A stretch of DNA of 64,000 bases from Mycteria americana. Taxonomy: Eukaryota; Chordata; Aves; Ciconiiformes; Ciconiidae. Position numbers and translations under genes: made by a program. The notes below the pieces were generated by a model, which worked only from the letters and a program-made list of their open reading frames with translations, had not been told where the DNA came from and made no database searches. The first letter of the stretch is position 1. Each line of letters starts with the position of its first letter. Positions 1,028 through 53,350 of this stretch are shown one piece after another. Location: NCBI RefSeq assembly GCF_035582795.1, contig NC_134368.1:37935501-37999500 (forward strand), in the 5' to 3' direction.

Positions 1028-18685
<17,658 letters not shown>

Positions 18686-24900: not shown

Positions 24901-25043
24901 TTGAATCCCTTTTCATTTGATGGAAGGAGAGGAGATACACTGCTTACTTCTCCGGGACAAAAGAAATCCACATGTATGCTGTCAACGAAGGCTACCTGGA
25001 CTTGGTTAACAGGCATTACAATCAGTCTGAAAGAGTTAAAAAG
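24901..25043 (+). pseudogene. Relict NWD-like gene: N-terminal exon with one stop
   Basis: The block follows CTCTAG and ends before GTGAAG. After two bases, the frame from 24903 reads ESLFI, then a TGA, then WKERRYTAYFSGTKEIHMYA and NEGYLDLVNRHYNQSERVKK. The long protein-like run broken by one TGA (CGA to TGA would be typical CpG decay) suggests an old exon. I recognise no domain. Confidence 0.5.
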
Positions 25044-25563
25044 GTGAAGTTCTACAAGATATTTGTAGTAGCTTATATGCATGTGGATCCAATAGTTTTG
25101 TATATTCCTTTCTTCGTTAACTTGCTTATTGTGATGTTTAAAATGCTCTGAGTGCAAGCAGATATATTAGCTTATTAGCTAGTGTGTGTATGTGTCAAGT
25201 AACTGTTCAGTCGGATGAGTGCAAGAGCAGTTACCTTGTCTTTCCTAATTTCATGGCATGATAAGAGTTTTCTACCTCTTTTCGCGGTGCACACTTACAG
25301 GTAATATACCTCCCCTGGTTTTCTTCCCAGCATGGGAAAAAAATGGTACTCGGCATCACTGGGTGTTTCCTTCATAGCTTTTATATAGAAAGGTATATTG
25401 GGTGGGGGAGGAAGAAAAAAATTAATATAAACTACTGACTGGTGCTGATGCCTCACACCTGGAACTAATTAAGATAATCTGTGTCACATTGCATATAATA
25501 TAATGTGCAAGCTACAATATGTCTCCCTCCTGATTTATTTTCTCCTGTTTTAAATGTATATAC

Positions 25564-26150
25564 TTGAGGCCTCTAGTACAATCTCTGACTGGTAAAGATT
25601 GGGCAGAATCTCTTTGTGGTCATCACAGTAATCTTTGTTTCATAGACACAAGCCCCTCTCTGTTAGATGCTGTATCAATGAACCCAAAGGAAGCAGGCCT
25701 GGTCAGTGTCTTCCAGGATCAGGAAATGGGGAAGAAACGTATTCTATGAGGAGACACATGCTAAATACGAAAAGCAAACACTGAACTTCTTTGGATATCT
25801 GTTCAGAGAGAGAAGATGACAGAAGTATTGAAGAGGTGAAAGGAGGAGGGAGGAACAGCTTGAGGTCTGGAGGCTTAAGAACATGGTTGGTTACTCTTCT
25901 AAAAAACACAGTTGATAAACATACGTTGTTTCTCCGCATGTTAAAACATCTCTAAGGTATTTTAAAAGATGATAAAATGTTTTTGAAGGTGTTAATGATA
26001 AACCATTGAGGGGAGGAAAGAATGTCACCAGAAGAAAGTTATACACAGGAGCAAATCTGGAAATTTTTATTTGAAGCTGTGAGATTCTTGTATACCGAGC
26101 AAATGGAATTTCCATTATGTGAAGAGAGAGAGAACAACTCTAAAATCTAG
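25564..26150 (+). pseudogene. Relict NWD-like gene: heavily frame-broken coding block
   Basis: All three frames contribute protein-like pieces in succession: FYEETHAKYEKQTLNFFGYL, then DRSIEEVKGGGRNSLR and TWLVTLLKNTVDKHTLFLRM, then from 26022 MSPEESYTQEQIWKFLFEAV and FLYTEQMEFPLCEERENN. This is what a formerly coding exon with several small indels looks like. Borders are unclear and it may be more than one exon. Confidence 0.45.
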
Positions 26151-26577
26151 CTTCATCTTTCCTGCCAGATTCTGAGTAGTTTAACATTTTGAGCGTTGCA
26201 AGCTCAGAATTTTATCTGCTGCGTGGAAGGGTAATGCACAAAATTTGGATTTAGATGTACATTTTGCACATGCAAATTTGGCTCATCAGTATTTAAATCT
26301 CCAGTTAAAGTGCGTGTCTTGTGAGCAGAATGGTTAAAAGGTGATTTGCCATGCTTGCGCATATATGCACAATCTTGGTAAGGTGCATCATTGCATCATA
26401 TCACTTAAGTTACAAATGTTATGAAGTATATCGCCTGTAAGAACATGTCTTATTTGAGAAATAGTTATCCTCTGATTCATTCAAAGCTTTTGTTGCCATC
26501 AAATGCAGCGAAATAATCAAAACTGCAATGACTTTTTTGTTACAACAACCTGATCTCATTATGCTTATTTGTGCTAG

Positions 26578-26737
26578 AATCAGAGGCAGAAAGAAATGCA
26601 TTAATGGAAGAATCCTATCCTCAATTATACAATTACTGTAAAGAAAGAGGTTATAACTCCAGCTGATGGACCTGAGGTGGGGGCTCCCAGGTAGTGTCAG
26701 AAGTGATCACCACAATGTTTTACTACATCTGGAAATC
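26578..26737 (+). pseudogene. Relict NWD-like gene: 'ERNALMEESYPQL…DLRWG' exon, one-base frameshift
   Basis: The block follows the acceptor GTGCTAG. The frame from 26580 reads SEAERNALMEESYPQLYNYC-KERGYN, and the frame from 26663 continues LMDLRWGLPGSVRSDHH-NVLLHLE. These are the two halves of the signature found near the N-terminus of NWD-family proteins, where ERN.LM…YP.L..YC is followed within about ten residues by F.(V/L)(V/M)D(L/M)RWG. The break near 26657–26662 is explained by loss of one base. A TGA at 26738 ends the second frame. Confidence 0.65.
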
Positions 26738-27041
26738 TGAAGAAATGTTAAGAGATGAGACATCAAACATTTGTTGTAAGGTTTTCAGGATCTTTTTATT
26801 TAATTCTGGAATTCAATTGAATTTATATTTTTAGGGTACAATAAGTGTATTACTGGATTTATTATATAAAGAAAGGGCATATTGTAAACCTAGAATGCAA
26901 AAGAAGAAGGGATAGCGAGTGAAGCAAATTCTTGACTGATACACACTGTAAGAAACCTGTTAGGTTGGCTTTTGTGCTGTATGTAAATCAGGGTTGTATT
27001 TGTCTCCATTGTGTATGTATTCCTTTTTTCATTGCTTTCAG

Positions 27042-27482
27042 ATTTTTGTTGGGCGAAAGCCTGATGATCCTGTCATCCCAGGAATATTATGAAAGAAAAA
27101 CTTAGAGTAATTAAAGGTATAATTGGAAGAAGGAAACTAATTGAAATAATGCAAAAGCAGAAAATGTTAAGTGTTGAATCTCATGAGGAATCAAAAGAGA
27201 CAGTTCTGACTGAAAAAGCAGTGCAGACATGATAATCAGGCAGGTGTTGCTCAACAGTTTTTTGGGAACTGGCAAATCATCAAAAGAAAATATAACTGGA
27301 ATTCACTCTAGCAGAGAATCAGACTCAAACATTTCAGATGATCAGGATCTGTTTAATGTGTCATCGTCATTCCTCAAGCGTAAACCTGCCATTGAATGTG
27401 ACAAAGAAATGCAGCTGCTTAACCAGTGGTACAGACATGATGAAAATTTTCTTTCAAGTATTTACAAACCGCAGCCTACCAG
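27042..27482 (+). pseudogene. Relict NWD-like gene: 'WYRHDENFL' exon with two frameshifts
   Basis: The block has a pyrimidine-rich acceptor (…ATTGCTTTCAG) and ends before GTTAGT; it is 441 bases. The frame from 27043 is protein-like to about 27100, the +1 frame from 27104 to 27229 (RVIKGIIGRRKLIEIMQKQK…EKAVQT), then the first frame again (SSKENITGIHSSRESDSN… EMQLLNQWYRHDENFLSS…KPQPTR). The two shifts cancel. WYRHDENFLSSIY resembles the RDEN…PPTY(V)LQ motif of NWD proteins. The exon leaves two bases, AG, which pair in phase with the next block at 28032. Confidence 0.65.
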
Positions 27483-28031: not shown

Positions 28032-28222
28032 GCTGTTCTCACAGCTTGTCTTCTACTCATCGTCGTGGCACATTTTACAGGGATATTTTCAGCAGTGATC
28101 CTGCACACAGGCAGCAAGCTAAGAGCAAATGGCGGAGCTCTTCCAGAAACTACACAAGATATTTCAAGAGTATGCTCCACTTATTCTCAGGGAGGAAGCA
28201 TCCACTGAGCTTCTCGAGGCAG
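28032..28222 (+). pseudogene. Relict NWD-like gene: helical exon with two in-frame stops
   Basis: The block lies between …TTTTCCAG and GTGTGA. In the phase demanded by the previous exon it reads LFSQLVFYSSSWHILQGYFQ-Q, a TGA (28096), SCTQAAS, a TAA, then EQMAELFQKLHKIFQEYAPL and ILREEASTELLEA. The second half looks like intact helical coding sequence. It leaves one base, which joins in phase with the block at 29584. Confidence 0.62.
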
Positions 28223-29583
28223 GTGTGACTAGAAACCCAAAATGAAGAGAAGGGCACTCAGCTGGAATGATAAGCAATACATTATTTCCTAAAAGGAGGA
28301 GAAAGGTTAGTTTCAGTAATAAAAAAGTTAAAGGAGTTAAGAGACATCACTGGTTTTGGCACTCCTCAGAATCTTGTGGTAGGACAAGCAATACTTCAGT
28401 GAGTGTGTTACTGCTGTGATAAATATGTAAAATAGACAGAATTTCAAAGACATTACTTCTCAATAACCCTAAATGCCTCTTCCTGTTCAATGTGCTGTTT
28501 AGTCCACTTAAACATATGTAACTCCTTCTACAATCTGCAGGCCACTCTTTAGGCTCTACTAGAGGAGCAAAAAGCCTGGAGTTTGGCCCAACAAAATAAA
28601 ACACGTGCTGTGAAATTTTGTTTAAATGCAGAGAATAAAACAGCTACTGCAGAATAAGCCTAATCATGCAATAATAATTTAACAGCAAAACCACACATTT
28701 CAAGGGGTTTTTTTTTACAAATAAATCTTTTCTGGTTTTCATATGAAGAACAAAGGACAATCAAATGTTTTCTCTGAGGTTCAAAGTGGTTGTGCATCAG
28801 AGCTAAGAAAGTCATTTAGCACTTCTTTCTGCCACCCTTTCCACAGTATGGTGCTTATAGTGCTCAGATGAGCAGTTAAATTATTTAGAGAGATTATAAA
28901 GTTATTAACCTTCGATCCAGTAAAGAAAGTTGCTCCTTCTGGGCTATCTTTGGGGTTATTTATGTATTTGAAGACTACCCCTGTTGGTTACTGGTTAGTA
29001 TGAGTTAGATACATTTAGTTCTTAATCAGTCCTCGTGGCAATTTCCCCATTAATCAAAGTGGTTTGTTGAAGTTCTTGGCCTGCCCTCCACTTTTTTGAT
29101 ACCTTTCCCTAGTGTTTTATAAGTAAATTCAGGTTCTTATGCCAGAGCCACACTTGGTCACAGATTATTAATGCCCTGTTCCATACAAAGAAAAAAATCA
29201 TTGAGTTTAGCACCTGGAATGACACAGGTCTTTTCTTGTATCCATAATCACGTCGTAATGTAGACATTTCCATGCTCTTTTGATTCCACTCTTTCACAGC
29301 ATTATTGTCTTGTTAAGTGATGGAGAAAAGTTACATGTTTTCCATTATGTTACTCTGACCCAGACCAATTAATTAAATTCCAATCAATAATTTGTTTTAT
29401 CAGAGTTCGTTAGAAGTTTTCACAGGTTTATAGAAGGGTCTGTGTTGCTGCAAACATACCAAGATCTTTATTGCCATCTTCATGCATGCTATGTTCTCTT
29501 CCAGCATAATCTTTTCTTAAATAATTTTGATGGTAACTTTTAAAAAATGGAGTTGAGAATTAGAACATTTTTTCTCTCTCAAG

Positions 29584-29784
29584 TCTTGCAGCAAGAGGTT
29601 GATCAAGGATTCAAGATTTGGGGCTCTCCAGAAGATCACTCTTACTTCTTCAAGAGGAAGACCTTGACTTAGAATACAACCTGTCAAGCAAGCAGGCTTC
29701 AAAATGTTTTGATATCCACCTTGTGAAAACAAAGGTTAATGAAAGGAAGCACGTCAGAACATCATAGAAAGCATCCACGCACAG
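29584..29784 (+). pseudogene. Relict NWD-like gene: exon with one frameshift and one stop
   Basis: The acceptor is TCTCTCTCAAG and the donor GTATGC. In phase with the preceding exon it reads VLQQEVDQGFKIWGSPEDHS, shifts one base near 29645, then reads LQEEDLDLEYNLSSKQASKC and FDIHLVKTKVNERKHVRTS, with a TAG at 29765–29767 followed by KASTH. It leaves two bases, which pair with the block at 31100. The EVxxG…PEDHS stretch resembles the region before the NACHT domain of NWD proteins. Confidence 0.6.
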
Positions 29785-31099
29785 GTATGCCTACCATCAC
29801 TTTCCTTTATTCACCTCTGCCCCGGATGCTGGGAATTTCTTTTCATCATGTTCTAGAGCTCTAAACAGGGAAAAACTGAAGATCACAATATTTTTTGTCT
29901 TGTCTTGAGTGTAACTCTGTATTTTTTAAAGGTGCATCCTAAACCTGCGGTACTTTTATACTCCCAAGTAAGGTGCCTTCACTCTTTCTTTAAATACCTT
30001 CTCCAAGTTCCCTTCTTTCAGCTTGGTTTTCCCACTTAGGTGTTTATTCTGATGTTCTTTATCTCTCTCAATCAGCTGCAATCTTCTAAGACTTCCTGAA
30101 GACCAGTCTTCAGTTTGTTTTGCCTGTTAACTTCAGTTCTCAGTATTCAGGAAAAGCTATACAGAGGAGAGTCCATGTCAGTTTAAATCCTTAGAGAGGC
30201 ATGCTGAGTTAGAGTGATGTAGAAGGCTGACACGTGATTCTTAATTTGCCTTGGATACCCAACTTCATCAGCAATCCCATCAGAAGTGGTGGGATTGGCA
30301 TGGAATAAGGCAATGTGAATCAAGAATCAAAATCTTATCAGCAGTTGTTAATATATGTTTAATTAATCTGTATCTGCTCATTTATTGCTATTAATTCTTT
30401 GAGTTAGTAACAAACTCAGCTGTGTCTCACAAATCTGAAGAAGCCAAGGAAAGTATTAGGTATGGCCTATTATAACTCTTTTTCTCTTAACTGTAAAATC
30501 AGATCTAAGTGCACTCATTCAGCACTGGGGGTTTGAGGATGCTTTTCTATTATATGAACTCACAGACAGAACACTATTAATCTGTTGAGAAAAGGTGTAA
30601 CACAAGATATGATGTATCTATTTTTGGCTTCAGTTTATCTTAATTCTTCTCTTAGTCCTCATCTTAGATCACCTTTCTTGTCTGTGGATATGTGCTCTAG
30701 GCTTTACAAGTTTGTAAAACAAAAAGTACATTACTGAGCACAAACCTGCTCTGTGTTTTCTTCCTACCCAGCCCCCTTTATCTCTTCTTTTGCATCTCAA
30801 TGAAACAGGTTTGGCCATTGCTTGTCTTATCCTTCCACGTACTCAAAGCATGCACGAAGGGATGTTATTTTTTCTTGTTGCAAACCTAAAATTGTCAGGC
30901 ATAAGTAGTAATGCACAAGCTATCATCTAGGATTGTTAGAAATTAATTTAGTACGACTTGTGCAGAAAGATGTATTTATCAGTGTACTGGATATAATGCA
31001 GACATTACTTTGTTGTAGCAAGAGTTACCACTGGTTGCCTTCCAGTACGTTTTGATTCAACTAGTTTCTATGCTTGATAGGTTTATTCTCTCTATTTAG

Positions 31100-31336
31100 C
31101 TTCATCACACCAATATCTAGAACAAAAATGCAAGTTAGGGCAAAGATGGGATTGAACCCATCAACAGCAGATCCCATTCCTTCTACCTTGAACGCTTGCG
31201 CAATGTCTTTCAGAAAATTATCATCACCCAATTCCACTGGTCAGCTCTTGACAAGGACCTTATCTGAGGGAAAGTAACAAAGATCAGAAGATGTAGGAGC
31301 TGCAGACAAAAGGCTATGTTTTAAGTACTCTGAAAA
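31100..31336 (+). pseudogene. Relict NWD-like gene: exon with one in-frame stop
   Basis: The acceptor is TCTCTATTTAG and the donor GTTATA. Read in the phase set by the previous block: FITPISRTKMQVRAKMGLNP, STADPIPSTLNACAMSFRKL, SSPNSTGQLLTRTLSEGK, TAA (31275–31277), QRSEDVGAADKRLCFKYSEK. It leaves AA, which joins the A at 32054 as a lysine codon. A single stop in 79 codons of otherwise open frame indicates recent or mild decay. Confidence 0.58.
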
Positions 31337-32053
31337 GTTATAGTGAAAAAATCGCCTTGTATTTAAGTGAGTCTGAAAATGGTCTTAAGACTAAAAAAAC
31401 ATGGGCAAGTTACTTGGTATGAAGTGAGATGTTTCTAGTCAGCTGACAGACAGCACACTGCTTACCATGTGAGGATCGTGATTACAGCATATTTTCATTT
31501 TATTGATAGAAGAACTGAAGAATAATTAGAAAATTGGCTTTGTAGATTTGGGGAAAAGTAAACCCTTAAACTAAATTTTGCCTTTCCTATTAATTTTTAT
31601 ATTCCTTTGTCCCATGTGACACTTAATATGAATATATAAGAATTTTGGTTTTGTTAGCAACTATACAAATCTACTGGGCTGTACACTAAATGTCATATTA
31701 GAGACTTTAACCTCTATCTTTGAGTGTGCTGAGAGTTAACTAGGGCAGTTGTAGATAATGGCATATTTTATGTGTACTTACAAAGGGCCTGTGCCTGCAA
31801 TTTTGTGAAGAATTTGTAGATAGGGCAGCTGGTTTAAGAACATAGTTTGCATATTAGGTAACTTTCATGTCTATTTCCAATGTCATTATGAAATAATGGT
31901 GTTTGGGTTTGCTGTTCACACGTCAGGAAGAGTTATTTATTTACTTGTAAGACTGCTAATAGTTTTGTAAACAAAGGAAAAGAAAAATGTGTTTAGGGAA
32001 GGCTTTCTCTCTTTCTGTTTACCTAGAATGATCAGTTCCAAGTTTTTCCCCAG

Positions 32054-32222
32054 AAATGCTACATGTCAGGAGGAAAAGGGAAGTGTTTACAACGGGGATG
32101 AGGAAATTCTGGCGCATGTTCAGCAGGGTCAGGCTCTGTGAGTTCAGCAGCAAGCTGCCGTTTATTTTATGTTCATTGGCACAAAGCGAAGTAGAACATG
32201 GTGTGGTGGAGAAAACTTGGAA
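32054..32222 (+). pseudogene. Relict NWD-like gene: exon with in-frame TGA
   Basis: It follows …TTTTTCCCCAG. In phase with the previous block it reads NATCQEEKGSVYNGDEEILA, HVQQGQAL, TGA (32139–32141), VQQQAAVYFMFIGTKRSRTW, CGGENLE, then TAG. The TGA fits a decayed CGA arginine. The 3' border is not clear; I end it at the second stop. Confidence 0.55.
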
Positions 32223-33265
32223 TAGCTCACCTGTCTGTAAAAACTGATGAGCTTTTTCCTTTTGAGAGTAGCTGTTTGCCTTTTTTTTTTTTCCTTGCTT
32301 CTCCCACCCCCCCTAATAAGTTCAAAAGTATATGTGTGATTCATCTTAATAATACCTCACCAGTTTATTAAGGGAGTCCTCCCTACGATCCTAAGACGGC
32401 ACACCATTTTCAGTGCTGCAGGAGGAAAGAAAGATCCTCCAAAGTTGTATCTGGTCTGATGTAGGAGAATGATTTCTTGATATAAAATCTGACCATACAC
32501 ATGGTCTAGAGCTTGGGATTTGAAAACTAAGGATTTTCTATGCTGCCTCAGTTTACTACCACCATTCACCCTCACTTACCCCAGCTTGTCTCAGTGTTTC
32601 AAAGAAAGACAAAACACCTTCCCTCTCCCAAATATATCTGTCTATATACACAAATATATTCAGTACCTGAGAAGAGTCAATTACGTACGTGAGAGGAGGA
32701 GCAGTCTTCCTCCTGAGCTCTGCAGATGAATGCCAGAAGCATGAGATGTGCTTATATGTTTTATCTTAGCACAGAACTATGAGTGTTGTAAGCAGGTTGA
32801 TACAAATCCATTCTGTCCCCGGTCCATGATACACAAGCAGGAGGATTCATAAATTTACAGATTAATTAGCTAGCAGAGACCACATGGAGGATCCCGTCCT
32901 ACATGTCTACAAACAAGTCAATCTGTACTGTATATCACTTGCATGTAAGCCCCTCACCCCATAAAAACCTTATGTTAGTTAATGTAAGATGCAAACATAC
33001 GAAGCAGCATAAGGGGAGAGGGAACTAATTAAAATAATACTAGGAGAGGTTTCTAGGGTATTTCATCCATTGGTTAGAATTCCAGTTAAAACTACATATC
33101 TAGTAAAGAGCTTCTGATATCAGATTCTTATTTGTACCTGAAAGTTGGATGGTTTCCTTTTTAAAAGGAGGAAAATATTAATTAGAATGAAATGTCTTTT
33201 ATAAATTCTACAGTTTTCTTTCAGAATGAAAGTTGTGATGTAAAATACATGCCTGCAGCTTAGTT

Positions 33266-33925
33266 ATCATAGAATCATAGAATAGTTTGGGTTGGAAGGG
33301 ACCTTTACAGGTCATCTAGTCCAACCCCCCTGCAATGAGCAGGGACATCTGCAACTAGATCAGGTTGCTCAGAGCCCCGTCCACCCTGACCTTGAATGTT
33401 TCCAGGGATGGGGCATCTACCACCTCTCTGGGCAACCTGGTCCACTGCCTCACCACCCTGGTCCACTGCCTCACCATCTAGTCTAAATCTACACTGTTTT
33501 AGTTTAAAACCGTTACCCCTTTGCCTATCGCAACAGGCCCTGCTACAAAGTCTGTCTCCATCTTTCTTATAAGCCCCCTTTAAGTACTGAAAGGCCACAA
33601 TAAGGTCTCCCCGGAGCCTTCTCTTCTCCAGGCTCAATAACCCCAACTCTCTGCAACAGAGGGATGGAAAGGTGTTCCATCCCTCAGATCATTTTCGTGG
33701 CCCTCCTCTGGACCCGCTCCAACAGGTCCATGTCTTTCCTGTGCCGAGGGCTCCAGAGCTGGACACAGTGCTCCCGGTGGGGTCTCACCAGAGCAGAGCA
33801 GAGGGGCAGAATCACCTCCCTCGACCTGCTGGCCACGCTTCTTTTGATGCAGCCCAGGATACCATTGGCTTTCTGGGCTGTGAGTGCACATTGCCAGCTC
33901 ATGTCCAGCTTTTCATCCACTGAGT
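33266..33925 (-). mobile_element. CR1 LINE, 5'-truncated, with end of reverse transcriptase ORF
   Basis: The left end carries TCATAGAATCATAGAAT, the reverse complement of the CR1 3' octamer repeat, so the element lies on the minus strand with its 3' end at 33266. The minus strand encodes remnants of the pol C-terminus, for example [20 protein letters not shown] and [14 protein letters not shown], then [20 protein letters not shown] in another frame. It is truncated at about 33925 and carries frameshifts, so it is dead. A 21-bp tandem duplication lies at 33436–33477. Confidence 0.93.
33436..33477. repeat. 21-bp tandem duplication inside CR1
   Basis: Two adjacent 21-base copies beginning CCTGGTCCACTGCCTCACCA differ only at the last base. 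They occupy the place where CR1 copies normally have a stretch like GTGAAGAATTTCTTCCTAAT, so the duplication seems to have accompanied loss of that piece. Confidence 0.75.
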
Positions 33926-35104
33926 TGTCTTTAAATATGATGTAACTCCATAAGCAAATTAATGAATAGACTATACAGTTGTTTAAGTTGGTCCTGTGCC
34001 TGAACAATATGGACTTGGTCCACTGAAGAACATCAACTCACGTGACCATTCTTACCCCAAATGTTCTCACACTCGATTAGTGTTTTCTGATGGGAACATT
34101 GTTATTTTTCCAACAAAACAACTGTCAGTATGTGTTTCAGATCAACAAGTAAGCTTCTGAAAGAAAAAAAAATATTTTAACACAGGGATGCAAGAGTTAT
34201 AATTTGATTTATTTGGTGCCACTGGTGAGAGCAGAAAAGTACAATTAATTCTAAGCCTCTGCTATCAGATTGCTGATGTTTGCAAAATTTCCATGTGTTT
34301 TTCTGAGGTTACCAAAATTTCAGTACTGTTTTGTAGTGCAGAAATTACTGGTGCTTATTTTAATATTATAATTATCACAAATTGCCATTATGATAACCCA
34401 TGTATTTGGGATACTGCAATACAGTGTGCACATCATTCTTGTGGAAGGACTTAGATCTGTGCCCACGAATATAAATTATAAAATATGCTTTAATTTTCAG
34501 TTGTTTCAGCTGGTAAACGTGTGGACGTGTATGGTTTGTAGGTAAGATAACACAGTTTTAAAAGCATATTTTTCTTTTCCACTGGAAATAAATTCCTTGT
34601 AACAAATAAAGACTCTTTGGGGTGTGAGATTTGTGAAATAATGAATATTTTCTGAATCCTGCAAACAAAATGTTTTTGAGAAAGGACATCAAACTTCAGG
34701 CCTCAAAGTATCAGTCAAGAACAGAAATCCAGGCAAATGTTCTTGTCAAAAAGAACAGTGTTTAACTAGTTCCTTATTTTATTTTAATCAACATTAGGTG
34801 CTGAAAATAGATTTCTGCCTGGACCAAAACCCCCATCTGTTTTCTTCTCTGAATTTGAAGGGAGTTCAGTTCTGGCAGGAACCTTGCGTCTTCCTCTTTT
34901 CCAGACAAATGTGTCAAGTTGCAGCTTAAAGCTCTGGTCTCGGTTATAATCGTTACTCAGCTGGTGTATTTCTGTGTATTTTAAGAAAAATATAGCAACC
35001 TGTATGTTGTTTTGTTTTGTGGTGGTTACCTTTACCAGTATTTGCTGTTCTCTGGAGTATGCATTACCCACCAGAGGGAGCCGAAGCCAAGAACTGTCAG
35101 ATTT

Positions 35105-35352
35105 TCATAGAATCATAGAATCATTTAGGTTGGAAAAGACCGATAAGATCATTGAGTCCAGCTGTTAACCTAGCACTGCCAAGTCCACCACTAAACCATG
35201 TCCCTAAGCGCCACAGCTACACGTCTTTTAAATACCTCCAGGGATGGCGACTCAACCACTTCCCTGGGCAGCCTGTTCCAGTGCTTGACAACCCTCTCGG
35301 TGAAGAAATTTTTCCTAATATCCAATCTAAACCTCCCCTGGCGCAACTTGAG
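35105..35352 (-). mobile_element. CR1 LINE 3' fragment
   Basis: It begins TCATAGAATCATAGAATCATTTAGGTTGG in pieces typical of the reversed CR1 3' end. It continues with CR1 tail sequence (CTCCAGGGATGG, GGGCAGCCTGTTCCAGTGCT, GTGAAGAAATTTTTCCTAAT) up to GCGCAACTTGAG. It is a short 5'-truncated copy of a CR1 subfamily different from the one at 33 kb, and has no coding capacity. Confidence 0.92.
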
Positions 35353-38300
35353 TTGGCCTTTCAATTCCCAGAGGGTTCCCTGGTGAAAGTCCTCTCTTAC
35401 ACTTCACAGGGCTTTGAATTTGGGCATCTGTCCTCAAGTTAGCTTGGAAGCAGATGGGGACCGGGTAGGAAATCAGAGAACCTCCCTATGCTAAGTTATG
35501 ACCTCTTTTGGGAACCATCACTTCAGTGTCAAAGCAAGCAAAGCAAAACCTTGTGATGTACAAGTCATTGTTCTTTGGGTTTTATGTATGCCGTTCTTTG
35601 TAACATGAGTAAGGACACCAAAATTGTATGAAAGAGAAATAACTTTGAAGGTAAACTAATTATCCCTGAGAAAATTAGGCCAGGTAGAAGGAAGGGTGAA
35701 AAGGTTATCCATGTCTCTAAAAGGAAATCTCTCAAAATTCCTGACTACAAACAGGCTGGAGGATATTTCTGCTATATATTAAACTGATGTTTATCAAGAA
35801 ATAAATTGGCTGAAACAGGATAGAAGGTGTAGTTCATGCATATTATGTGTTTTGATTTTGTTCAGCACAGAAATATATCAAGTGTCTAAAGTGTTTATTT
35901 TGACTGAGAATTTTGGAACTAAATGTTTAAGTGTTTCCAAAATTACATATCTTCATTTTTCCTTAAAAATCACAGTATTTTGACATATTCTAATTTATCC
36001 CAATTCATTATAATATACTGAAGAATGTTCTGATTTTTTTACTCAGCCAATTTTTTATCCAGCTCAACTGCAGTGGTTTCTTAAACACATATTGATAGAA
36101 GCTCGTTAAAATTTAAACCATGTTTTAATTATATCAAGCTATGTTTTCATTATTACATATAAAAACCCCAGGCCTCTAAAATGATTTAAAATTAAGTCTT
36201 AGTGCTATGGTGAATAGGTTAGGAGCCTGACAAGTCTCATAAAAAGCAATTTAAAAAAGAAAGTTATGGAGAATGTTGATATAGCTAATTTATTTATCAG
36301 TAAACATGAGGGATTAACACATACAGCTCCTTGCCTTGGGTGTGCCAATACTGACATGGGCAATGAACAGGTCAAGAATGAATTGGTCAAGGTGAGAGGG
36401 GTTTTATTGTTCTTTTTCTTGGTTTTCTTTCTGTTCGTTAAATCATAAGATCAATTTATATTTCACCAACTTTTTATTAAAATCTTCCTTTGACTTAGAG
36501 GACGGGAGGAGTGCTGGTCCTTCTGGACAAATGAGCTTCTTCCCACGTGTTTCCTTCTGTACTTTGAACAGAGAAATAAGTAGATGTTGAGACATGGAGA
36601 TTATCAGCTGAAAGGTGGTAAGGAACACCTTCTTATACCATTTCTGAGTTGTAGCTGACCATATGAACATAAACAGTCTTTAGGAACAGGTGGAGTTGAC
36701 TTCTTTGTTCTACAAAAGGCAGGAAAGCTCATATAGTTAATTATAGCTGAGCAATCATATACAAAACTGGTCCTTACTGCCTCTAAGCTGCTTGGTCCTT
36801 GCCTAAGTCATTTGTAGTTTTCAGTGCTGTGGCATCCTTTGACTTCTGCAAAACCCATTAGTCTATTGGTCGTAAGAATTATGACTGATGGGAGACATTG
36901 AAACTTCCCTCGGTAATAGTCAAATTTGCTTCTCCACCACCAATTTTGGGTAAACAGTTAGCCTATTAGACCTCCAATGGGATTTTTTTCCAAATTCAAA
37001 ATCTTGTCATACAAAATGGTAACAGTCACATCAAATAACCTCAATTTCAGTTCAGGTTTGTTCCTTGACTGCATTTTGTCATGTCCTTCAAAGGAAGGTA
37101 CAAGACAGTTTATATCAAATTGCTGTCTAATGGACTTGCTTTATGGCTTCCTCAGTTAGAAGTTGCCTATATACTGGAGCATGAGGTTTTAATAGACTTT
37201 TTTTTTTTTTAAATATCTGGATACTATCTAACTTATGAAGGGCTCATTATCCATATTTCAGCATTTCAGAAAGGAGGGCTTATTTCTGTATTTATTTTGC
37301 TGTCAATTTAGTTAAATAATGGCATAACTTGTCAGGATTTTTAGTAGGCATTTTCCAACATTTCAATGGGAATTAATCTGTCAAATGTAGTAAATAAAAA
37401 GAGAAATGTAAAAATTTCAAAAAGATCAGCAGGAGACTCATAAATTTGAAAACCAAAACAAACCTTAAATTATGTGGTTTGCAATTCCTCAGCAGTGCCT
37501 GTTGGATAAATTACAGTGCTGTATGACACTTTGAATGTGCACTTTAGGATTTTCTAAATTAAAGAAAATAGAAGGGGATAAAATCTTACAACTTTTTTGG
37601 AAGAGGAGATACGTTGTATTATAATTTCTTTCAGATGCAGTTAACTAGCTATAAAATGACCCTTCACTTTTTTAGTTTTCTTGGATTCCTTTTTACACTC
37701 CTCCTCACAATTATTTCTGACAGCTTTTTTCTTCTGTCTCTGCACTTCATTCCCACTGTCATTTCAATCTTTGTTTCAGTTCTCTGTCTTGTTTGGTTTT
37801 ATTTTTCTCTCTTGCTTTGTGTGGGGGTGATACTTTCATATTCTCTGTTTTCACATTTGATTTCCCTTCTCCTCAGAATTTTATTGCCTCATACTTTATT
37901 CTGAGGTCAGGGAAGGGAAAGGAATATATGCCAGCTGCAGACTCAGGAAATATACTCAGCTCTGTGTTTGAACCTATACTTTTTTTATTATTTCAGGGTT
38001 TTGATCTGATGGACTCACGCCAGTTGCTGCATGAAATACACATTTCTTCAGCAGATACTCCTATACATAGGGATTGCTCCATACTTATATCAAGAAATTC
38101 ATTGAAAGGTTATACTCTGTATAGAGTAGTAGGAAGTATTTTTCACCAGTGAGAATTTAGGATTAAAAAACTCCTCTTCATAACTCAACTGAGTATCAGC
38201 CTTCCATCATTGTATTTTTGTGAAAGTCAGGTCTGTTAATAATGTCTTTATATTTAATCCATTGCTCTCTGATTGATATATTGTCATTATATAATCCAAA

Positions 38301-41300: not shown

Positions 41301-42301
41301 AAAAATGTGGACAGCAAAATTCAGGTAGATCATTCAAGCAACCTCACAAGATAGTCCCAGTAGAACAACGACAGATGCGTGTTAATTGCAGAATATTCTA
41401 TTCCTGTGCTACAAATGCTTTTTTTTTTTTTTAATTTAACCTTAAATATGTAGGTGTTTATCCTGAATTTGTTTGTTTAGCCTTTTGTGGTGGAGAGAAC
41501 TACCTTCAAATGTGGAACTTTGCTGCGAAGATTAATGACTAGTTTTTGACTGTTACTACAAATAAGGGAAAAAACACAAATGGAATTTGAGACATTGTGG
41601 CTATGCAGAATTGTCCCAGGCATGTTCAAAATACACAGGTATTTGCTGTTTAAACATTCCCTTTCTTTCAGATTAGGGCAGGTAGCAGACAAGACAACGT
41701 GGCAGGCACAATGTTGCGTTTGAGAACATGACTGAAACCTTTAAAAGGCAGTTCTGCCAAAAAGAACAGACAAAATATACTAATTTCTGTAATTTGTGTC
41801 TGAATTGCCTTGCCTGTTTCTGAAGTAGTTTACACATTGCAAAGGGCTGGATTCAGAACTAACATCAATGAATACAATGCTGAGCACTGCTGGAATCATC
41901 CAGTTAAAAACAAGTTGAACATAAAAGAGTTAGCCAAAGGACTCATCCTCGCAACACCTTGATGTGGAGACTTTTTTAGAATGTGTCTCAGCCAAATTAC
42001 AGCAAAAAAGCTGAAGAAAAATATTTTTTTTTAATGATGAAAGCTCAGAACTCCAAAAGTGAACTCCTGATTCCCACTGGTTTCAGTGAGGCCAGGATTT
42101 CAGCCCTATGTTGCAACTGAATATATATATCTATGCTGGGGAATTGGAGATCACTGTCATGGGAGTGTTCAGAAGATTCATAAACCAAGCCACTTCAAAC
42201 TTTAAAACATAACAGGGACAACTCAGTAGGCAGAATAATTAGTAGTCATAGATTGGTGAGTGTTTTGGGGGTTTTTTGTCTTGGAGATATGTTGTATGCA
42301 G

Positions 42302-42482
42302 GAGTCTCAGTGCAGGAGTGATTACAGTGTGGAACATAGTAAAATCAAAATGCCATGCTGTTAGAATGGAAAAGGGACTTGTAGAAAGCATTGAAATTGT
42401 GCTGGTGAGGGATACAAAACTCTTTGTCTTTACAGACAAGGGATTGGCCTCTTTTATGGATTATCTGACACTCATTTTTCAG
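42302..42482 (+). pseudogene. Relict NWD-like gene: intact WD40 exon
   Basis: The acceptor is TATGCAG and the donor GTAGTA. After one base, 60 open codons read SLSAGVITVWNIVKSKCHAV, RMEKGLVESIEIVLVRDTKL, FVFTDKGLASFMDYLTLIFQ. GVITVWNI is a WD-repeat D strand, followed by a second blade start. It ends in phase 0, matching the block at 44247. No stop or shift is present. Confidence 0.6.
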
Positions 42483-44246
42483 GTAGTAAACGCAAATTTA
42501 TTCAGAAAGTAAGTTTGGGGGTGTGTGCATGCTTACAGATTTTTTTTACATTTCTGTAAAACCTAATTAAAGACGACATTTACTTAGATAATTACACAAA
42601 GCAGGCAAGGTGGGGTTTTTTTATATTTTTACTAGACTCTATTAAATTATGACCTTTTGGAAAAGAAGTATGTGAAGAAACAGTGAAGTCATTACATCAT
42701 TCCTTGCCAAGGTAAAGAGTACAGGATTCTTGAGGGAGGACTACTGCTTGGCCTCTCTGAGAATAGGTGAGTTTGTCTCTGGCACTGGCTGCATCATCCA
42801 CAAGGTTTTACACATAGAACAAATCATATGTTCATGCTCTGTACAACTAACTGCTAAATACTTTTAAATAGAATGATTGTTCAGTCAACCATCTTAATTG
42901 TTTTATTTTCTTGAGTCACAATAGTCATTAGCATAAAGGGCATTCTCTTAAAATCCATCAGATACTCACAGAAGTGTCTCTAAATAAAGTTAAAATCTGA
43001 AATTAAGCAATTCTTTACAGTATACTGTGTATCTGAGTGGAAACTAAGTCTGGTTAAGGTCAGCTGTACTTCTTAGTTTCAAAGCTACTGTGGGACCTGA
43101 ACCGTGAGCTAAGGCTCCCTTTTCCAGAAATGGAGAAATACAAAAGAAGTCACTTTCTGGGGATAAAACCCTCTAACAGTAATAAAGACCTCACTGGAGC
43201 AGAAGGATGCAACTTGTTCTTCCCTGTGCCTGTTGGACTGAGTTGGTTTTCCCTAGCATTTGTGAGGTCTGTGAGAAATGTTTGGATAAGATCTTTTGGT
43301 GCTGTTCCCAGAACATGTTTCATGTGATATCAAAGAATCCTGACGTTGTGCCAGGGACCTTTTTGTCATTGGGAATTTAGAGACTGGCTTTGTAAAGGGT
43401 TGGCTGAGCCAGAATGCAAAGAAAACTCCTGAGCAGTCTCTTCTGGCAGGCCATCTTCTGTCAAAGGCCACCAGGGACCTGTACCAGGAGACTCCACCCA
43501 AAAGGAGAATGAGCAAGGGAGCGACAGGTGACAGCTTTAACTTCTTTAGCACTGCAGAGCTGGAACTGAAACATTGGTTGTCCAGGCCATGGATTTTCAC
43601 CAAAATATGAACTATTGGAGTAAATAAATGAGGTCATTGTAACCTTCCTTAAAGCCAGAGTGTCCTTGTCTTGAAGCAGGGAGATCAGAGACGAAGACCA
43701 GACTGATGTATGATTATTATATTCCTTCAACTGCAAGAATTAATGACCCTAGCTGCCTGAGAAGTGGGAAGGAATTGTGACTATGCTCACTTAAATACTA
43801 TTTAAGTAGCATTACTATCTCCCTACACATCAGTCTGAACCAGTGGTTTCCAATCTTTTTCCATCTGTAACCCGTAAGTTTTGTCCACTGGCAAGGCAGT
43901 CCTGGGTGAACGGAAGGTAAGCATACTGACAGTTTTCCTCACTACTTTCCATTCACCTCTTAAAGTCTGGAGTTGCAGATAGCCTATTTTGACTTCTGAG
44001 TAAATGCAAGGAATTTATCTTGAATCTACCATTGCTCTTCACAGTAGTTATTTAAGGTGCAGTCTATCACCACCTGCTTACAATATACAAAAGATGAGAA
44101 GGAAGCAGGTTTTCCAGAAGCCTTAAAATTGTAGTGATCACCTATTAAGTAAATTGTGCATCCTTCCTTCTGAGGACTTTTGCTTCAGTGAATGTAATCA
44201 AGAGGTTGTATCAGCTGACAAATGTCAACATTTAATATTTTTTCAG

Positions 44247-44393
44247 AACTTTGGACCCCATGGGAAAGGTGCAAGGAAAGTAAGACAGGAAAGGAGACTG
44301 GGGAAGAAGGTAAAACAAGGAATGGAAAAAAAGGAACTTACTAGTGAAAAACATAATGCTATTGATCAGTACTTGCTTCGTGGAGATGAAAAG
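44247..44393 (+). pseudogene. Relict NWD-like gene: intact basic exon
   Basis: The acceptor is TATTTTTTCAG and the donor GTGAGA. It has 49 open codons, phase 0 at both ends: NFGPHGKGARKVRQERRLGK, KVKQGMEKKELTSEKHNAID, QYLLRGDEK. It is highly basic and I assign no domain; it may be an inter-blade insertion. Confidence 0.5.
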
Positions 44394-45252
44394 GTGAGAA
44401 AACATCCTAATGTATCATGTTTATACAGTTTCTCTCAAATCTCAAAATATTGTTCTGCTTACTGATGGATATGTTACGTAACAACTGTTAGAATGCTGAG
44501 AAGCTCTTTTGTCCTACTTTGTATTCCTTTTTTTTATGTCACTTATTTCTATCTTGTTTTCACTCCATAGTTTCCATTATGATCTGGTATCAGGAAGGTC
44601 TCGAACAGGTAAGTGTTCTAGGGTCATAATCATAATTAAGTCCATCTTTTGATTGCTTAATTTACACTGATGATTAATTTTCTAATTGGAAATTCTATAG
44701 TTTTTCTTCCTAAAGATCAAATTTTAAGTTGCAATAAGAATTTTACAGTTTAATTGTGTTGTAACCAGAATTCCTGTTTTCACAAGTTCGCAAAGTTTAT
44801 TAATAATCTTTGCTATTTACTGTCATCTGCATATATAAAGTATCACTGTTGGGCTGTGTTTGGCTTTACTATGAACAGTTTCCCCTCTGACTTACTGTAG
44901 ATAGTCTCAGCCCAGTGTTCATTTGACATGATTTACCTTGATTTTCTCAGTCATCACTGCATTGGGTCAACAGACAGATCAGCTGGAGAAGTTATTACAA
45001 GTCCATATGTGTACATATACAATAACATATATGTCCATATGAAAGGACTTATGCCTAGAGGGTGGTTTGGTTTTAAGGTTCATTGACCAACACCAATGCC
45101 ACTTAACTACTTATATAAATAAATACGCTAAGATTGAGAAAAGGGTACATATTTTTAATTAGATATAAATGCGATAAAAAAGTGCTGGCATAAATCTGCA
45201 GAAAAGTTCTTGAGCTTGTGACTGACTTGCCAGATGATCTCCTGCTCCCTAG

Positions 45253-45459
45253 GTCACAGTGTGTTCATACCACGTGCACCATCTCTCTGAGTTCAGTTTG
45301 CAAGCCCTGTGCCAGCTCTGTCTTCTTGAAACCAGCACATCCATCCTCTTCCTATACACTACTGCCTTGACCTTCACTGACCACTATCTGGTCCTTCCTA
45401 GCTACACTGAAGAAGAGAAAATGGACTATATTATACTGTGGAACTTAGAAACCAGAATG
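45253..45459 (+). pseudogene. Relict NWD-like gene: intact WD40 exon
   Basis: The acceptor is GCTCCCTAG and the donor GTAGGT. It has 69 open codons, phase 0 to 0, including LYTTALTFTDHYLVLPSYTE and MDYIILWNLETRM. ALTFT…YLVLPS…YIILWNLET is the full layout of a WD40 blade (strand A/B, strand C, W in strand D). Confidence 0.65.
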
Positions 45460-47209: not shown

Positions 47210-47428
47210 GTTTAAAAATTATTGAAAAATGAGCCAGATGTTTACTGCTTGACAATTACAGATGATGCCAGTAGAATTGGTTTTGGGGTCATGATGGAAA
47301 ATGGGTAAACTCCTGAATATGTTCCTCTTTTGTTATTACATGAATGGTACACTCCACAGTCATCAAGTTCCTCTACCAAAGCACTTGCTCAGAAAGGAAA
47401 AATGAAGAAGCTGGCTAATGCTGATAAA
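47210..47428 (+). pseudogene. Relict NWD-like gene: exon with two in-frame TAA codons
   Basis: The acceptor is AAATTTTAG and the donor GTAACT. It is 73 codons, phase 0 to 0. It has TAA at 47213–47215, then KLLKNEPDVYCLTITDDASR and IGFGVMMENG, TAA at 47306–47308, then TPEYVPLLLLHEWYTPQSSS and STKALAQKGKMKKLANADK. Both stops are single-base changes away from common sense codons. Skipping this exon would keep the reading frame. Confidence 0.62.
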
Positions 47429-48999: not shown

Positions 49000-50676
49000 G
49001 AAAATAATATCAGTTTATATCAGTGGGAAAATAAAAGGTGTTTGAAAGCAGAGTGAGCCTAAAGAACTTCACTTCAGCTATAAAGAATTGAATGGAAGTA
49101 TGTAATTTTTATATTCATCAGATAATTCCATTTAGAAGCTGTGCTTCATTTAGTGAGAAGGAAAACTAGGACTATAATCTGGGCGCATTTTACATGTATT
49201 TATATGCAGATTTACATTGGGCATAAGGTTCAAGGAGCCTTATCAAATGATCTGTGTTTTGGCAAGCATACTAACATGATCTTAATTTAATAACAACTTC
49301 TTCCTACTGATTTTTTGAATAAACTTGTGCTTAGAGGCTGTATTCTAAAATATCAGGACTTAATTTTTTTTTTTTTAAATCCTTCATACAGAGCCAGAAT
49401 AGATGCAAGAATGGTTCTGGTTACAGTTGGGATGTTCCTCCTGTGAGGGACTCACACGATTTGAATTATTAAGAAAAGTTTTAAATTTCTTCTCAGTTCA
49501 TTTAATTCTCGTAAGTTTTAACAGCCTTTTACAGTTGGCAGTTACTGAAGCTGCAGTTCAGTTACTCTGGTGCACTCCATGAAGTCAAGCCTTTGAAATC
49601 TGTGGGTGATTTCTTGTCTGCTGTTGTACCTCATGCCAGCAAGTACAGATGACAAGTCATTAAATACAAGAGAGAGGTGTTAGCAAAAAAAATTTTATTA
49701 AATACGAGACTTGTCTGACCTGCTTCCCCCAGTCCAATTCTGTCTCTGCGGCAACAGCCACAAGCATGTCACAAAACGTTCAGGATTTCTCTAAAGAAAA
49801 ATTTAAATACTTAAAATGTCACTTTTCAAGGAAGCATCGTATTTTATCCTCAAGCAGGTTTCAAAAGTGCATAGCATGTTTACAGGAAGACAAGCCTTGT
49901 GGCTTGTAAAGCTTCATCATCAGCTAAGGCATTAATTTCGCTCCCCACAGCAAGCAGGGCCACCGGCTGCACGGGCATAAGAATGAACACATACTCTGTT
50001 AACTTACCTGATCTGGCAGTGCTTTGGGATTGGGGAAGTATGTCTTCTGAAGTCGAGTTTAGAATAGCTGTGGTATGATAATCACAAATTTTATTGCAAT
50101 GTTCTTTACATAAAATCATCAAGTACCACCTTCATGGTTTACTATAAATATTTTAATAGTGTAAGGGGGGAAAGACTCAAAATTATTCTTTCCTTCTATT
50201 GCTAAATAAGAGGTAATCATAACGTAGATGAATTTGCCACTCTGTATACTATCACTAGATTACTGCATTGAAAATCATAGTCAAAGTACGTATTTTTATT
50301 TAGAAAATGCTCAATAGTCTGTTTCTGTACGATTTCAATTATTATTCAACATTTCCAAGTTTTATGAAATTAATATGAAGAGTTCTTCACCGATGCAGAA
50401 ATTCCAATGATCTGATACTCAGAAATCCAAGTAATTTACTGTTTTTTAAACTTAAAGACTCTCCCAAAAGCCATTTAATAATCCCATATCTTGCATCCCG
50501 TGTCCCAGCTCTACTGGCTAACTTACTTACACAACTCACTGCGTTCAACTGACAATACAATTGTTTGTTAGCATCTCAATATTACACCTTTGGGGAAAAA
50601 AAAACATATTTAGTGTTTTTTTTATAGAATTTACTATCTGTATGTATCTGAGTATGTTTTTGTTATCCGTTCACAG

Positions 50677-50801
50677 GATAAAAGTTTGGGATCCATTTGA
50701 ACACCAGCATACCATTATTCCAAGTTATGAAGGTGTACATCATACTGTGATCAGCAAACTCCAGCTGCTGGAGGAAAGGGCAAAAGCAGTCCTACTTGCA
50801 G
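50677..50801 (+). pseudogene. Relict NWD-like gene: intact WD40 exon
   Basis: The acceptor is CGTTCACAG and the donor GTCTGT. After one base it reads IKVWDPFEHQHTIIPSYEGV and HHTVISKLQLLEERAKAVLL-A, leaving one G. IKVWDP is a strong WD-repeat end and KAVLLAG begins strand B/C of the next blade. The left-over G joins GA at 53119 to give glycine, continuing G-YVNLWDL in frame. Confidence 0.68.
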
Positions 50802-51611
50802 GTCTGTGAAACTGATTATTATACTGGTAATGCTTCTACAATTCTATTTCTCACCCTTCTCCAGTAATAGATGGCACGTTAGTATTAAACATTTACCAGG
50901 CAAAATTTCTAAGTGGGCAATAACGTAGGTATATAGTGGGCTGCAACTCTAGTATGGTTTTGATATTATTTTGGTTTTATTTTTATTTGAGAAATGATGG
51001 GTACTTTCTCCTTTTGTGCTATTGAGGACTTAACCTTTGCTATCTGGTGAGGTCAAAAGGAACCTCGAAATAATTCTGTGTCTGCCCAGCAGCAGCTGAC
51101 AGACTAGGGCGCATGCAGCCCCCCTTTTTGTCCCTGCACTGGAGAGCGGGATCGATGATTCCAGTTACCAATCCCTCCCTGTCTCAGGCACCAGGATATT
51201 TTAATGGCTCCAATAATGTGTTCCTCAGACAACAACTAAAGGCATTCTTCAAGGCCTGAAAAGCACGTAGTCCAGAGAGGACAGGGTCAAAAATAGTCAA
51301 AGAACAAGAAAGCAGAACTAAGGAAATAACAGTACCAGATAATCTTCATGCAAACGGCAGAAATTTGGGGGGTTTTGTTGTTGTTACCACAGGTTCCCTT
51401 TACTCTAGACTTTTAACGTCTATTTATATTCATTTCCACCACTCAAAAGAATACCCTATTTGTTGTTAACCTCAAACAGCAAGAAAGCAGTATCTCCATA
51501 AAAACCCAAAAAGGACACGTAGCTCCCATGGCACAAGTATGAATGCTGGGGCACCTGTGGGCAAATGAATTAATTGCACAACTTCTGTCCATGTCCCTCC
51601 CCCCTCCATTA

Positions 51612-51665
51612 AAAACAAACAAACAAACAAACCAAAAACAAAACCACACACACAAAACAAAAAAA
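51612..51665. repeat. (AAAC)n-like and A/C-rich simple repeat
   Basis: Several AAAC/CAAA units run into CACACA and A-rich sequence. It is a simple repeat in the interior of the relict gene, between its last two exons. Confidence 0.85.
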
Positions 51666-53118
51666 CACAAACCCAATACTGTTGCTCTACTGCCAGCAAA
51701 TGCAGCTACTGCGGTAACCTCACACGGTACCTGTCTGGGCTGCTGTCTCCCAGATGAACCTTGCTGTATTCCTCACTGGAAGGTTACAGTTGCAAGTAAA
51801 TTGCAGTCTTTTCCCCAAAAGTATGAAACAAATTTACACACCTAAAACTTGTCAGATTTTTAAATTCATACTGCATATAATTATATAGCATCCAGTTTGC
51901 CTCCCACAAAAATCTCTGCCTCACTGAGACCATGCAGGGGCAAAATGAAGTTTGGGGTGGTATCTATAAGCCTACCATTTCCTAGCCTGACTGGTGACCT
52001 AAATAAAACTTTCAGTATTAGGTTTTTCCAAGATGTAATTTATACTATGGCTGTCAGGAGTTAAGATAGCAGTTGCCATGGAGCTTTAATCTTTTTTTAG
52101 GCTTAAGTCAAAGGAAGCTGGAAATCTGTATGGTGGGTAGAACCCTGCTCAACAGAATTTTATTTAAATTGGGACAGGATTTTATCCTAATTTCTCTACT
52201 GAAAGTTATTCTCAAGGGTTCTAGAATTCTTTTTATTTTATTCTGTTTCTCAGCAGGAGATGGAAGTTTCCTTTTAGGCTTCTTAAATCACGCTACATTC
52301 AACCACAGAAGTACCCAAGTTGCTCCCCCCCACTCCTCCAACTATAAACTGTAACTTTCTACTAGTCTTAATGTGCACAGCTAATCCCTGTAGTGAAATT
52401 CATTCACCAGTTTTACCATTTTCAGTGGAGGCACTCCATAAGTATGCAGAAGCAAAACTTTGGGGAGGATTTTATTTTCTATATGCCCACTAAGCGCTAA
52501 TCCCTACACTGGAAAACAGACCTTTGGAACAGAAGTAATTAGTTTGAATCTGTGTGTCTGCTACTTATAACTTCCTTGATGTATATTTAAGAAAAAAAGA
52601 AGTGTGCAATGTGTGAAGTGCATCTCTGAGAAGTACAAAATTGGCCATGCGATAGCCAGTAATGTTCTGCTAGAACACAGTTGCAGCAGAACAGAGATGC
52701 AATCCAGTCTAATACTTGCAGTTAAAACATTGCTGGCTGACTTAAAACTGAATTTGCCCTACTTAATAAACCAAAAAAATGCAGAATTTGTCAAAACAAA
52801 CTTTTAGAACTCTTACCCTACCCCAACCAAAAATTGGATAGGATTCAGATGCAATATGAGCTTGATCTTAAGAAGAGACTTGGATTGAAAGGCAAATGAC
52901 AGCTTCATTTAATGAATAATTTGCCAGAATTTTCACTAAATAGAACTGTTTACTAGCTAACTGTAGTGGAAATCCATAATCCTTGAGCTGGTCCAAAGAC
53001 TGCAGGGTAATCAGAAAATTGGCATAAAAGAGGATTTCAAACTTTTTCAACTCTTTAATGGCATGTATTATAAAAGAGGCATGATAATAGTAAAAAATAA
53101 ACATCTTTTTCCTTCTAG

Positions 53119-53350
53119 GATACGTAAATCTATGGGACTTGAACAGTTGCACAATAACATCTGGTTTTATCACTGACAGCAAAATGTCTTACCTAACTAG
53201 CACTGGACAGAAAAACAATTCTTGTGGGTGTGACTGACAACCCTGCTCATCATCTTGAGAGGATCAGATGCAAAACCAACTGTTCTACTCAAAAAATACT
53301 TCTTTGGAGAAGTATCTGCTAGCAGCCAGGAAGAACCTGAAGAAAACTAG
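53119..53350 (+). pseudogene. Relict NWD-like gene: probable terminal exon with one frameshift
   Basis: The acceptor is TTTTTCCTTCTAG. After GA it reads YVNLWDLNSCTITSGFITDS and KMSYLTSTGQKNNSCG, completing the WD blade begun at 50677. TGA at 53235–53237 ends that frame. A one-base shift near 53223–53234 opens LTTLLIILRGSDAKPTVLLK and KYFFGEVSASSQEEPEEN to a TAG at 53348–53350, which looks like the natural end of the protein. Confidence 0.6.

Follow-up and report, generated by a model that had tools for sequence, protein, structure and literature searches.

What the DNA between RWDD4 and ING2 in Mycteria americana once encoded, and whether it still encodes anything, is the question that this locus raises. 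A sequence-only reading of a 64,000-nucleotide window (the whole stretch of DNA that was analyzed; contig NC_134368.1, positions 37,935,501 to 37,999,500) had placed there, at 24901 to 53350, a decayed gene of the NWD1/NWD2/TEP1 type made up of at least fourteen protein-like blocks. All coordinates below are window positions.

The remnant between RWDD4 and ING2

We used tblastn to compare nine relatives of the proposed protein with the window and found 13 to 27 HSPs for each, with best scores of 91.7 to 129 bits. All of these HSPs lay on the plus strand between 24 and 54 kb, save 1 of the 15 found with P0003. The control, which consisted of the reversed window and 20 dinucleotide shuffles, gave only 3 to 10 HSPs in total per relative, the best at 31.2 bits. 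Frameshift-aware alignment resolved the signal into 19 plus-strand coding blocks from 26550 to 53347, arranged in protein order, in which 624 of 1144 aligned residues were identical to those of an ~2000-residue relative. Every block scored 81 to 225, compared with maxima of 26 to 50 over 20 shuffles of the reference segment and with 18 to 35 on the opposite strand, in each case below the plus-strand score. The features are as follows.

12531..17350, plus strand: exons of the upstream neighbor RWDD4 (tblastn hits of two fish models: P0077, 12525-17350; P0124, 12531-16317)
26550..26778, plus strand: e1, DUF4062/TIR-like domain, part 1; 2 frameshifts, 1 stop
27012..27477, plus strand: e2, final part of the TIR-like domain, with linker; called stops doubtful
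28070..28218, plus strand: e3, linker before NACHT; 1 frameshift
29565..29787, plus strand: e4, linker; 2 frameshifts called, 1 well flanked
31100..31261, plus strand: e5, linker before NACHT; 2 stops
32025..32138, plus strand: e6, immediately before the Walker A exon position; 2 frameshifts
32139..34183, plus strand: interval expected to hold the Walker A exon (Anolis P0029 residues 642-693); no trace
34184..34307, plus strand: e7, NACHT core following Walker A; 1 frameshift
34308..37951, plus strand: interval expected to hold P0029 residues 736-1275 (540 residues: remaining NACHT, winged helix, first WD40 repeats); no trace
37952..38119, plus strand: e8, WD40 region; no lesion called
39518..39661, plus strand: e9, WD40 region; no lesion called
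40187..40401, plus strand: e10, WD40 region; 1 frameshift
41474..41626, plus strand: e11, WD40 region; 2 stops
42285..42488, plus strand: e12, WD40 region (ITVWNI); no lesion called
42642..42767, plus strand: e13, WD40 region; 1 stop
43353..43526, plus strand: e14, WD40 region; no lesion called
44249..44396, plus strand: e15, WD40 region; 1 frameshift
45253..45453, plus strand: e16, WD40 region (IILWNLET); no lesion called
47216..47302, plus strand: e17, WD40 region; no lesion called
50669..50803, plus strand: e18, WD40 region (IKVWDP); no lesion called
53112..53347, plus strand: e19, C terminus (VNLWDL); 3 called frameshifts, two separated by 5 bases
58509..59225, minus strand: exon of the neighbor ING2 (Pfam ING domain above cut-off, PHD slightly below)

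The blocks are spaced by non-coding DNA across 26.8 kb, showing that introns were kept and that this is not a processed copy. Support for the gene begins at 26550, and the probable exon start of e1 is the AG preceding 26578. The seven motifs quoted in the sequence-only reading were all recovered on the plus strand, from 26577 to 53200, and the extent that it had given held except at its upstream end, where the peptide at 24957-25043 (from a block placed at 24901-25043) had no match better than chance among 125 relatives (best E value of 0.41) and was rejected. Pieces at 47303, 48290, and 48398 were likewise rejected as parts of the gene, being unsupported by relatives, and a piece at 38780, which matched one sawfish protein out of order (E value of 0.005), was not used. 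Ten short pieces of the remnant gave no relevant family when compared with Pfam.

RWD domain matches in two of the RWDD4 exons fell slightly under the Pfam cut-off. In two fish gene models (P0077 and P0124), RWDD4 is fused to this gene in the same order and on the same strand as in the window, implying that the neighborhood is ancient. The comparison of the RWDD4 side suggests that the site downstream of RWDD4 is likely the ancestral place of the gene.

The ancestral protein

Relatives were found in squamates, amphibians, sharks, bony fish, the alligator, and one turtle, as unnamed LOC entries or as si:ch211-212k18.6, with several bearing the automatic names NWD1 or NWD2. All are gene models. 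Those of snakes, lizards, frogs, sharks, and bony fish run the full length of the gene, and those of the near outgroups, alligator and turtle, are partial. The RWDD4-linked gene (zebrafish si:ch211-212k18.6, P0094; Anolis LOC100559988, P0029; Crotalus tigris LOC120302418, P0020) matched the remnant block by block, and we took it as the orthologue. Its models run full length (although the P0094 isoform is without Walker A), whereas the gene in the window is broken and partly missing.

The ancestral protein of ~2000 residues comprised a TIR-like (DUF4062) domain, a NACHT ATPase, an NWD1-type winged helix, and WD40 repeats. A profile of 15 relatives matched the human TEP1 chain 11gz_A over the TIR-like domain (E value of 2e-7), and an oyster relative matched the same chain at 4e-8 and Pfam DUF4062 at 22.6 bits, compared with a cut-off of 24.7; DUF4062 was absent from the Pfam listing for P0020 (E ≤ 0.01) and P0018 (E ≤ 1). 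The Pfam NACHT family scored above its cut-off in P0020, P0018, P0045, P0066, and P0095 and below it in P0001 and P0094; HTH_NWD1 was above its cut-off in six of the seven scanned proteins, the exception being P0094; and WD40 was above its cut-off in P0020, P0001, P0045, P0066, and P0095, P0018 ending before the WD40 part. The Walker A motif GxxGxGK[ST] was present in 25 of 26 aligned relatives. In 23 of the 26 rows, the residue following a conserved Phe position (occupied by Leu in two rows) was Glu, which, judging by the fold order and a stretch of TEP1, may correspond to TEP1 E1008, the catalytic glutamate on helix C, the 11gz_A alignment ending earlier. A predicted 911-residue model had a STAND fold, and a structure search with it matched Apaf-1, NLRs, ORC/Cdc6, and Avs3, with no TEP1 chain among the matches listed. 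The N-terminal domain folded alone gave a poor model (pLDDT of 61).

The intact protein would be expected to work like other STAND switches: the C-terminal beta-propellers would keep it closed until ligand binds, upon which the NACHT domain would swap its nucleotide and form a ring, with the N-terminal TIR-like domain as the putative effector. Such a mechanism could not work at this locus because the ATP-binding exon could not be traced, the reading frame is broken in the effector domain, and the propeller exons appear to be decaying neutrally.

Decay of the locus

The sequence-only reading had seen stops and frameshifts over many exons. We called 27 lesions over all blocks, 20 of them well flanked. 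In e2, the frame changes between an open stretch that ends at 27229 and another that begins at 27214; with this block left out, 12 well-flanked frameshifts and 6 well-flanked stops remained, in 11 of 18 blocks, which bears that impression out. Seven of the 19 blocks (e8, e9, e12, e14, e16, e17, and e18) carried no called lesion.

Neither Walker A nor the winged helix could be traced in its expected interval of the window's own copy. The search for the Walker A exon gave best scores of 34 and 37, compared with shuffled-protein maxima of 36 and 34, and that for P0029 residues 736-1275 gave 38 to 44, compared with maxima of 39 to 42 (3 shuffles each), the controls in these searches being few (3 to 10 shuffles). 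N-terminal residues 1-223 were also untraced; since this region is poorly conserved, their absence carries little information.

At columns invariant among the relatives, the window matched 127 of 162, whereas in leave-one-out comparisons the 21 relatives matched 92 to 100% each. In a neutral simulation, a 78% match at invariant sites corresponded to ~0.10 to 0.11 changes per site, at which 11 to 13 stops are expected in 1100 codons; the number called was 13, including 6 outside e2 that had good flanks. The sequence comparison suggests that the propeller exons that survive are decaying in the manner of neutral sequence. At a bird substitution rate of about 2e-9 per site per year, the decay would be on the order of 50 million years old; this is likely an underestimate, since only blocks that could be aligned were counted.

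The locus is therefore predicted to encode no protein here, and this lineage likely lost the gene. We consider it very probable that the locus is a broken, non-processed, likely unitary pseudogene of a vertebrate DUF4062-NACHT-WD40 (STAND) ATPase gene, directly downstream of RWDD4. The term unitary, already used in the sequence-only reading, fits because searches of the genome assembly, in which the top 20 and 24 candidates were scored, turned up no further copy.

Alternatives and comparison systems

The seven blocks without a called lesion, three of them (e16 to e18) consecutive, might suggest that a shorter gene is still alive and that the open WD40 blocks encode a small propeller protein or function as regulatory RNA. 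We regard this as highly improbable: these blocks were kept no better than the other twelve at invariant columns (47 of 60 compared with 80 of 102), and the broken blocks e10, e11, e13, and e15 interrupt them. Some bird genes are reported to be located on hard-to-sequence chromosomes (PMC12954441), and our genome searches scored limited candidates, so that the locus could in principle be one of two copies, with an intact one absent from or overlooked in the assembly. Against this, searches with Anolis and alligator proteins (E ≤ 0.01 and E ≤ 1) returned the locus itself together with paralogues or WD repeats of 24 to 29% identity and nothing higher among the candidates scored, and the locus has introns and adjoins RWDD4, where the two fused fish models have their single gene; we give an overlooked copy very little credence indeed.

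Human NWD1, NWD2, and TEP1 resemble the relatives in the order TIR-like domain, NACHT, helical or winged helix, and WD40, and this shared order, like the automatic names of several relatives, might point to a decayed orthologue of one of the three. This reading is scarcely credible. The open frames of this genome that are, judging by domain content, NWD1-like and NWD2-like were 24 to 28% identical to the relatives and did not match the window (best E value of 1.0), whereas the RWDD4-linked relatives did. Furthermore, 16 vertebrate relatives formed their own clade (100/100) in a tree that represented the three genes by two NWD rows, both of them long-branched. The family assigned in the sequence-only reading thus stands as to type, but the remnant is, by these comparisons, most likely the orthologue of a separate vertebrate gene without a proper name, distinct from NWD1 and NWD2.

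A 2026 preprint identified the DUF4062 domain of human TEP1 as a TIR-like NADase and shows TEP1, NWD1, NWD2, and NPHP3 as its human carriers (PMC13174449). The gene described here is, as predicted from its relatives, a further vertebrate member. It is conceivable, though less likely than not, that it was an extra jawed-vertebrate TIR-like-NACHT-WD40 switch beside these four, with its P-loop and putative catalytic glutamate kept from sharks to lizards, that it was lost independently in the two warm-blooded lineages, birds and mammals, and that archosaur decay may have started at the P-loop exon. That exon is missing in the window, and the alligator gene model is without it as well. Counting against early P-loop loss in archosaurs, the listed zebrafish isoform also has no Walker A, so that the gap in the alligator model may simply reflect which isoform was chosen.

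A deeply conserved vertebrate STAND gene without a proper name in database entries thus appears to be dead in this lineage. Its remnant can still be read at the old site, so that the loss can be dated and compared across birds, crocodilians, turtles, and mammals. Zebrafish, frog, or lizard would be suitable for testing what the gene does. Our literature search found no paper naming si:ch211-212k18.6 and, by title and abstract opening, no description of this gene among the matches listed; in the accessible main text of a paper on genes missing in birds (PMC4290089), RWDD4, ING2, NWD, and NACHT all go unmentioned. Two invertebrate relatives, compared as such and not as orthologues, have roles in sensory cells in the excerpts available: C. 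elegans qui-1 (PMC8871372) and fly CG10185 (PMC7198581).

A parallel is STK33, described in the available portion of PMC4509753 as a unitary pseudogene in neognath birds, with remnants marked by extensive deletions, missing exons, indels, and stop codons, and as kept in reptiles, amphibians, fish, mammals, and palaeognaths. As far as that portion goes, both cases show a gene of reptiles, amphibians, and fish reduced to avian remnants; mammals retained STK33, whereas no mammal-named protein was found among the relatives here.

The gene remnant and its neighbors

Frameshift-aware alignment of related proteins to the window (bases 37935501-37999500 of contig C4), whose sequence contains no N, resolved 19 plus-strand blocks (e1 to e19), arranged in protein order, between RWDD4 and ING2:

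12531-17350, plus strand: RWDD4, the upstream neighbor
26550-53347, plus strand: coding blocks e1 to e19
58509-59225, minus strand: an ING2 exon, the neighbor on the far side

The blocks cover 1122 of the 1961 residues of the Anolis relative, and each outscored the opposite strand as well as all 20 shuffles of the reference segment. With tblastn, nine relatives gave 13 to 27 HSPs each against the window (best, 91.7 to 129 bits), while the controls, one reversed window and 20 dinucleotide shuffles taken together, gave each relative 3 to 10 HSPs (best, 31.2 bits). The protein-like blocks proposed here by the sequence-only reading were thus real and far above controls, with the exception of its initial block, before 26550, for which the relatives provided no support. 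Identity to the window was 394/638 for turtle, 319/558 for alligator, and 52 to 54% for squamates, over columns that partly differ. The higher turtle and alligator values are consistent with a bird host, as are the genome size and the repeats that we take to be CR1-like.

A by-eye join of the readable blocks, searched against public proteins (E ≤ 0.001), had at least 19 matches (best, 2e-98) in alligator, snakes, lizards, turtle, frogs, caecilian, and coelacanth. A rattlesnake query (E ≤ 1e-60) found 84 proteins among the matches listed, and an alligator query (E ≤ 1e-100) found at least 75. Together, the protein searches listed at least 125 distinct relatives, all of them gene models, spanning squamates, amphibians, sharks and rays, ray-finned fish, coelacanth, alligator, one turtle, and molluscs; the lists were limited by E value, protein length, and shared words. 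No bird or mammal appeared in the visible names among the matches listed, an absence that may also depend on how many bird and mammal entries the database contains.

The gene likely sits at its ancestral place, because two ray-finned fish models, Scomber P0077 and Scortum P0124, fuse RWDD4 to the start of the gene. Their first parts align to the RWDD4 of the window (12525-17350 and 12531-16317, respectively), and the remainders align to the blocks. We infer that the same-strand adjacency, examined in relatives on the RWDD4 side, predates the split of ray-finned fish and tetrapods. A snake family member, P0021, carries the name RWDD4 isoform X1, though without a matching RWD portion. Head to head with RWDD4 lies an open frame (11222-11548, minus strand) with no Pfam match, which we take to resemble the start of TRAPPC11.

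Lesions and undetected exons

We called 27 lesions, 20 of them well flanked on both sides. With e2 discounted as a poorly conserved stretch of doubtful frame, 12 frameshifts and 6 stops were spread over 11 of 18 blocks; two frameshifts in e19, 5 bases apart, may be a single event. The Walker A exon (Anolis residues 642 to 693) did not clearly outscore shuffled proteins in its expected interval, nor did residues 736 to 1275 and 1 to 223 in theirs (3 to 10 shuffles each). Searches for the missing parts in the 1.35-Gb genome, the single one of its group searched, yielded only paralogues of 24 to 29% identity and generic WD repeats among the best 20 and 24 candidates. Stretches that we assume to be CR1 repeats (33265-33930 and 35105-35440) lie within or beside intervals with missing exons.

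Of 162 columns that are invariant among 21 relatives, the window matched 127, and each relative, when left out in turn, agreed at 92 to 100%. The seven lesion-free blocks were no better kept than the others (47/60 versus 80/102), as neutral decay predicts, which counts against a surviving short gene. Simulation placed divergence near 0.10 to 0.11 per site. Judged by its frameshifts and stops, its undetected Walker A and central exons, and its equal decay at invariant columns, the gene is very probably dead at this locus, and the earlier reading of the many-exon breakage as a pseudogene is supported.

The alligator and turtle entries are both partial. In the alligator model (P0001), e6 runs straight into e7; the model skips the Walker A exon, which is likewise without trace in the window (32139-34183), and also lacks the TIR-like N terminus and the C-terminal part. 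It agreed at 70 of 73 invariant columns. Its Walker A gap may be a matter of annotation, since a listed zebrafish isoform also lacks Walker A. The sole turtle entry among the matches listed (P0003, Platysternon) is a 718-residue C-terminal piece misnamed TRMT61A; it agreed at 97 of 107 columns, below all 21 relatives, which may reflect damage to the turtle gene or a faulty gene model.

The ancestral protein and its kinship

The longer relatives have about 1800 to 2150 residues. Their N-terminal domain is DUF4062 TIR-like: a 15-relative profile found human TEP1 chain 11gz_A (E = 2e-7), and the Pfam DUF4062 score of the oyster relative fell slightly under the cutoff; Pfam did not list DUF4062 for snake P0020 or frog P0018. 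NACHT, an NWD1-type winged helix, and WD40 repeats follow. The predicted model of the 911-residue P0018 (pLDDT, 84; pTM, 0.85) is similar to Apaf-1, to NLRs, and to Avs3, a bacterial STAND protein. Of 26 aligned relatives, 25 carry Walker A, and the listed zebrafish isoform is the one that lacks it.

The fit to the NWD1/NWD2/TEP1 family noted by the sequence-only reading holds for this domain order, and the gene is distinct from NWD1 and NWD2. The same genome has an open 1320-residue frame at 26.2 Mb on the same contig (C4) and a frame on C24, which from domain content we take to be NWD2-like and NWD1-like, respectively. Both are 24 to 28% identical to the relatives, and neither matched the window (best E = 1.0). 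In a 20-row tree, the 16 vertebrate relatives formed one clade (support, 100/100), outside which lay the NWD rows, with their long branches, and the two mollusc rows. By sequence comparison, the dead gene is neither NWD1 nor NWD2. A literature search of limited scope found no paper on it.

If the intact protein worked like Apaf-1 and as a preprint (PMC13174449) proposes for TEP1, the propellers would sense a ligand, the NACHT domain would oligomerize, and the TIR-like domain would serve as effector; none of this can operate from this locus. The same preprint describes TEP1 as active in NAD+ hydrolysis and NWD1, NWD2, and NPHP3 as inactive. A Glu, the putative catalytic residue, occupies a plausible position in the TIR-like domain of 23 of 26 relatives. 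Oyster P0095, the closest mollusc relative, represents a cluster of 309 member sequences, far above the other entries seen.
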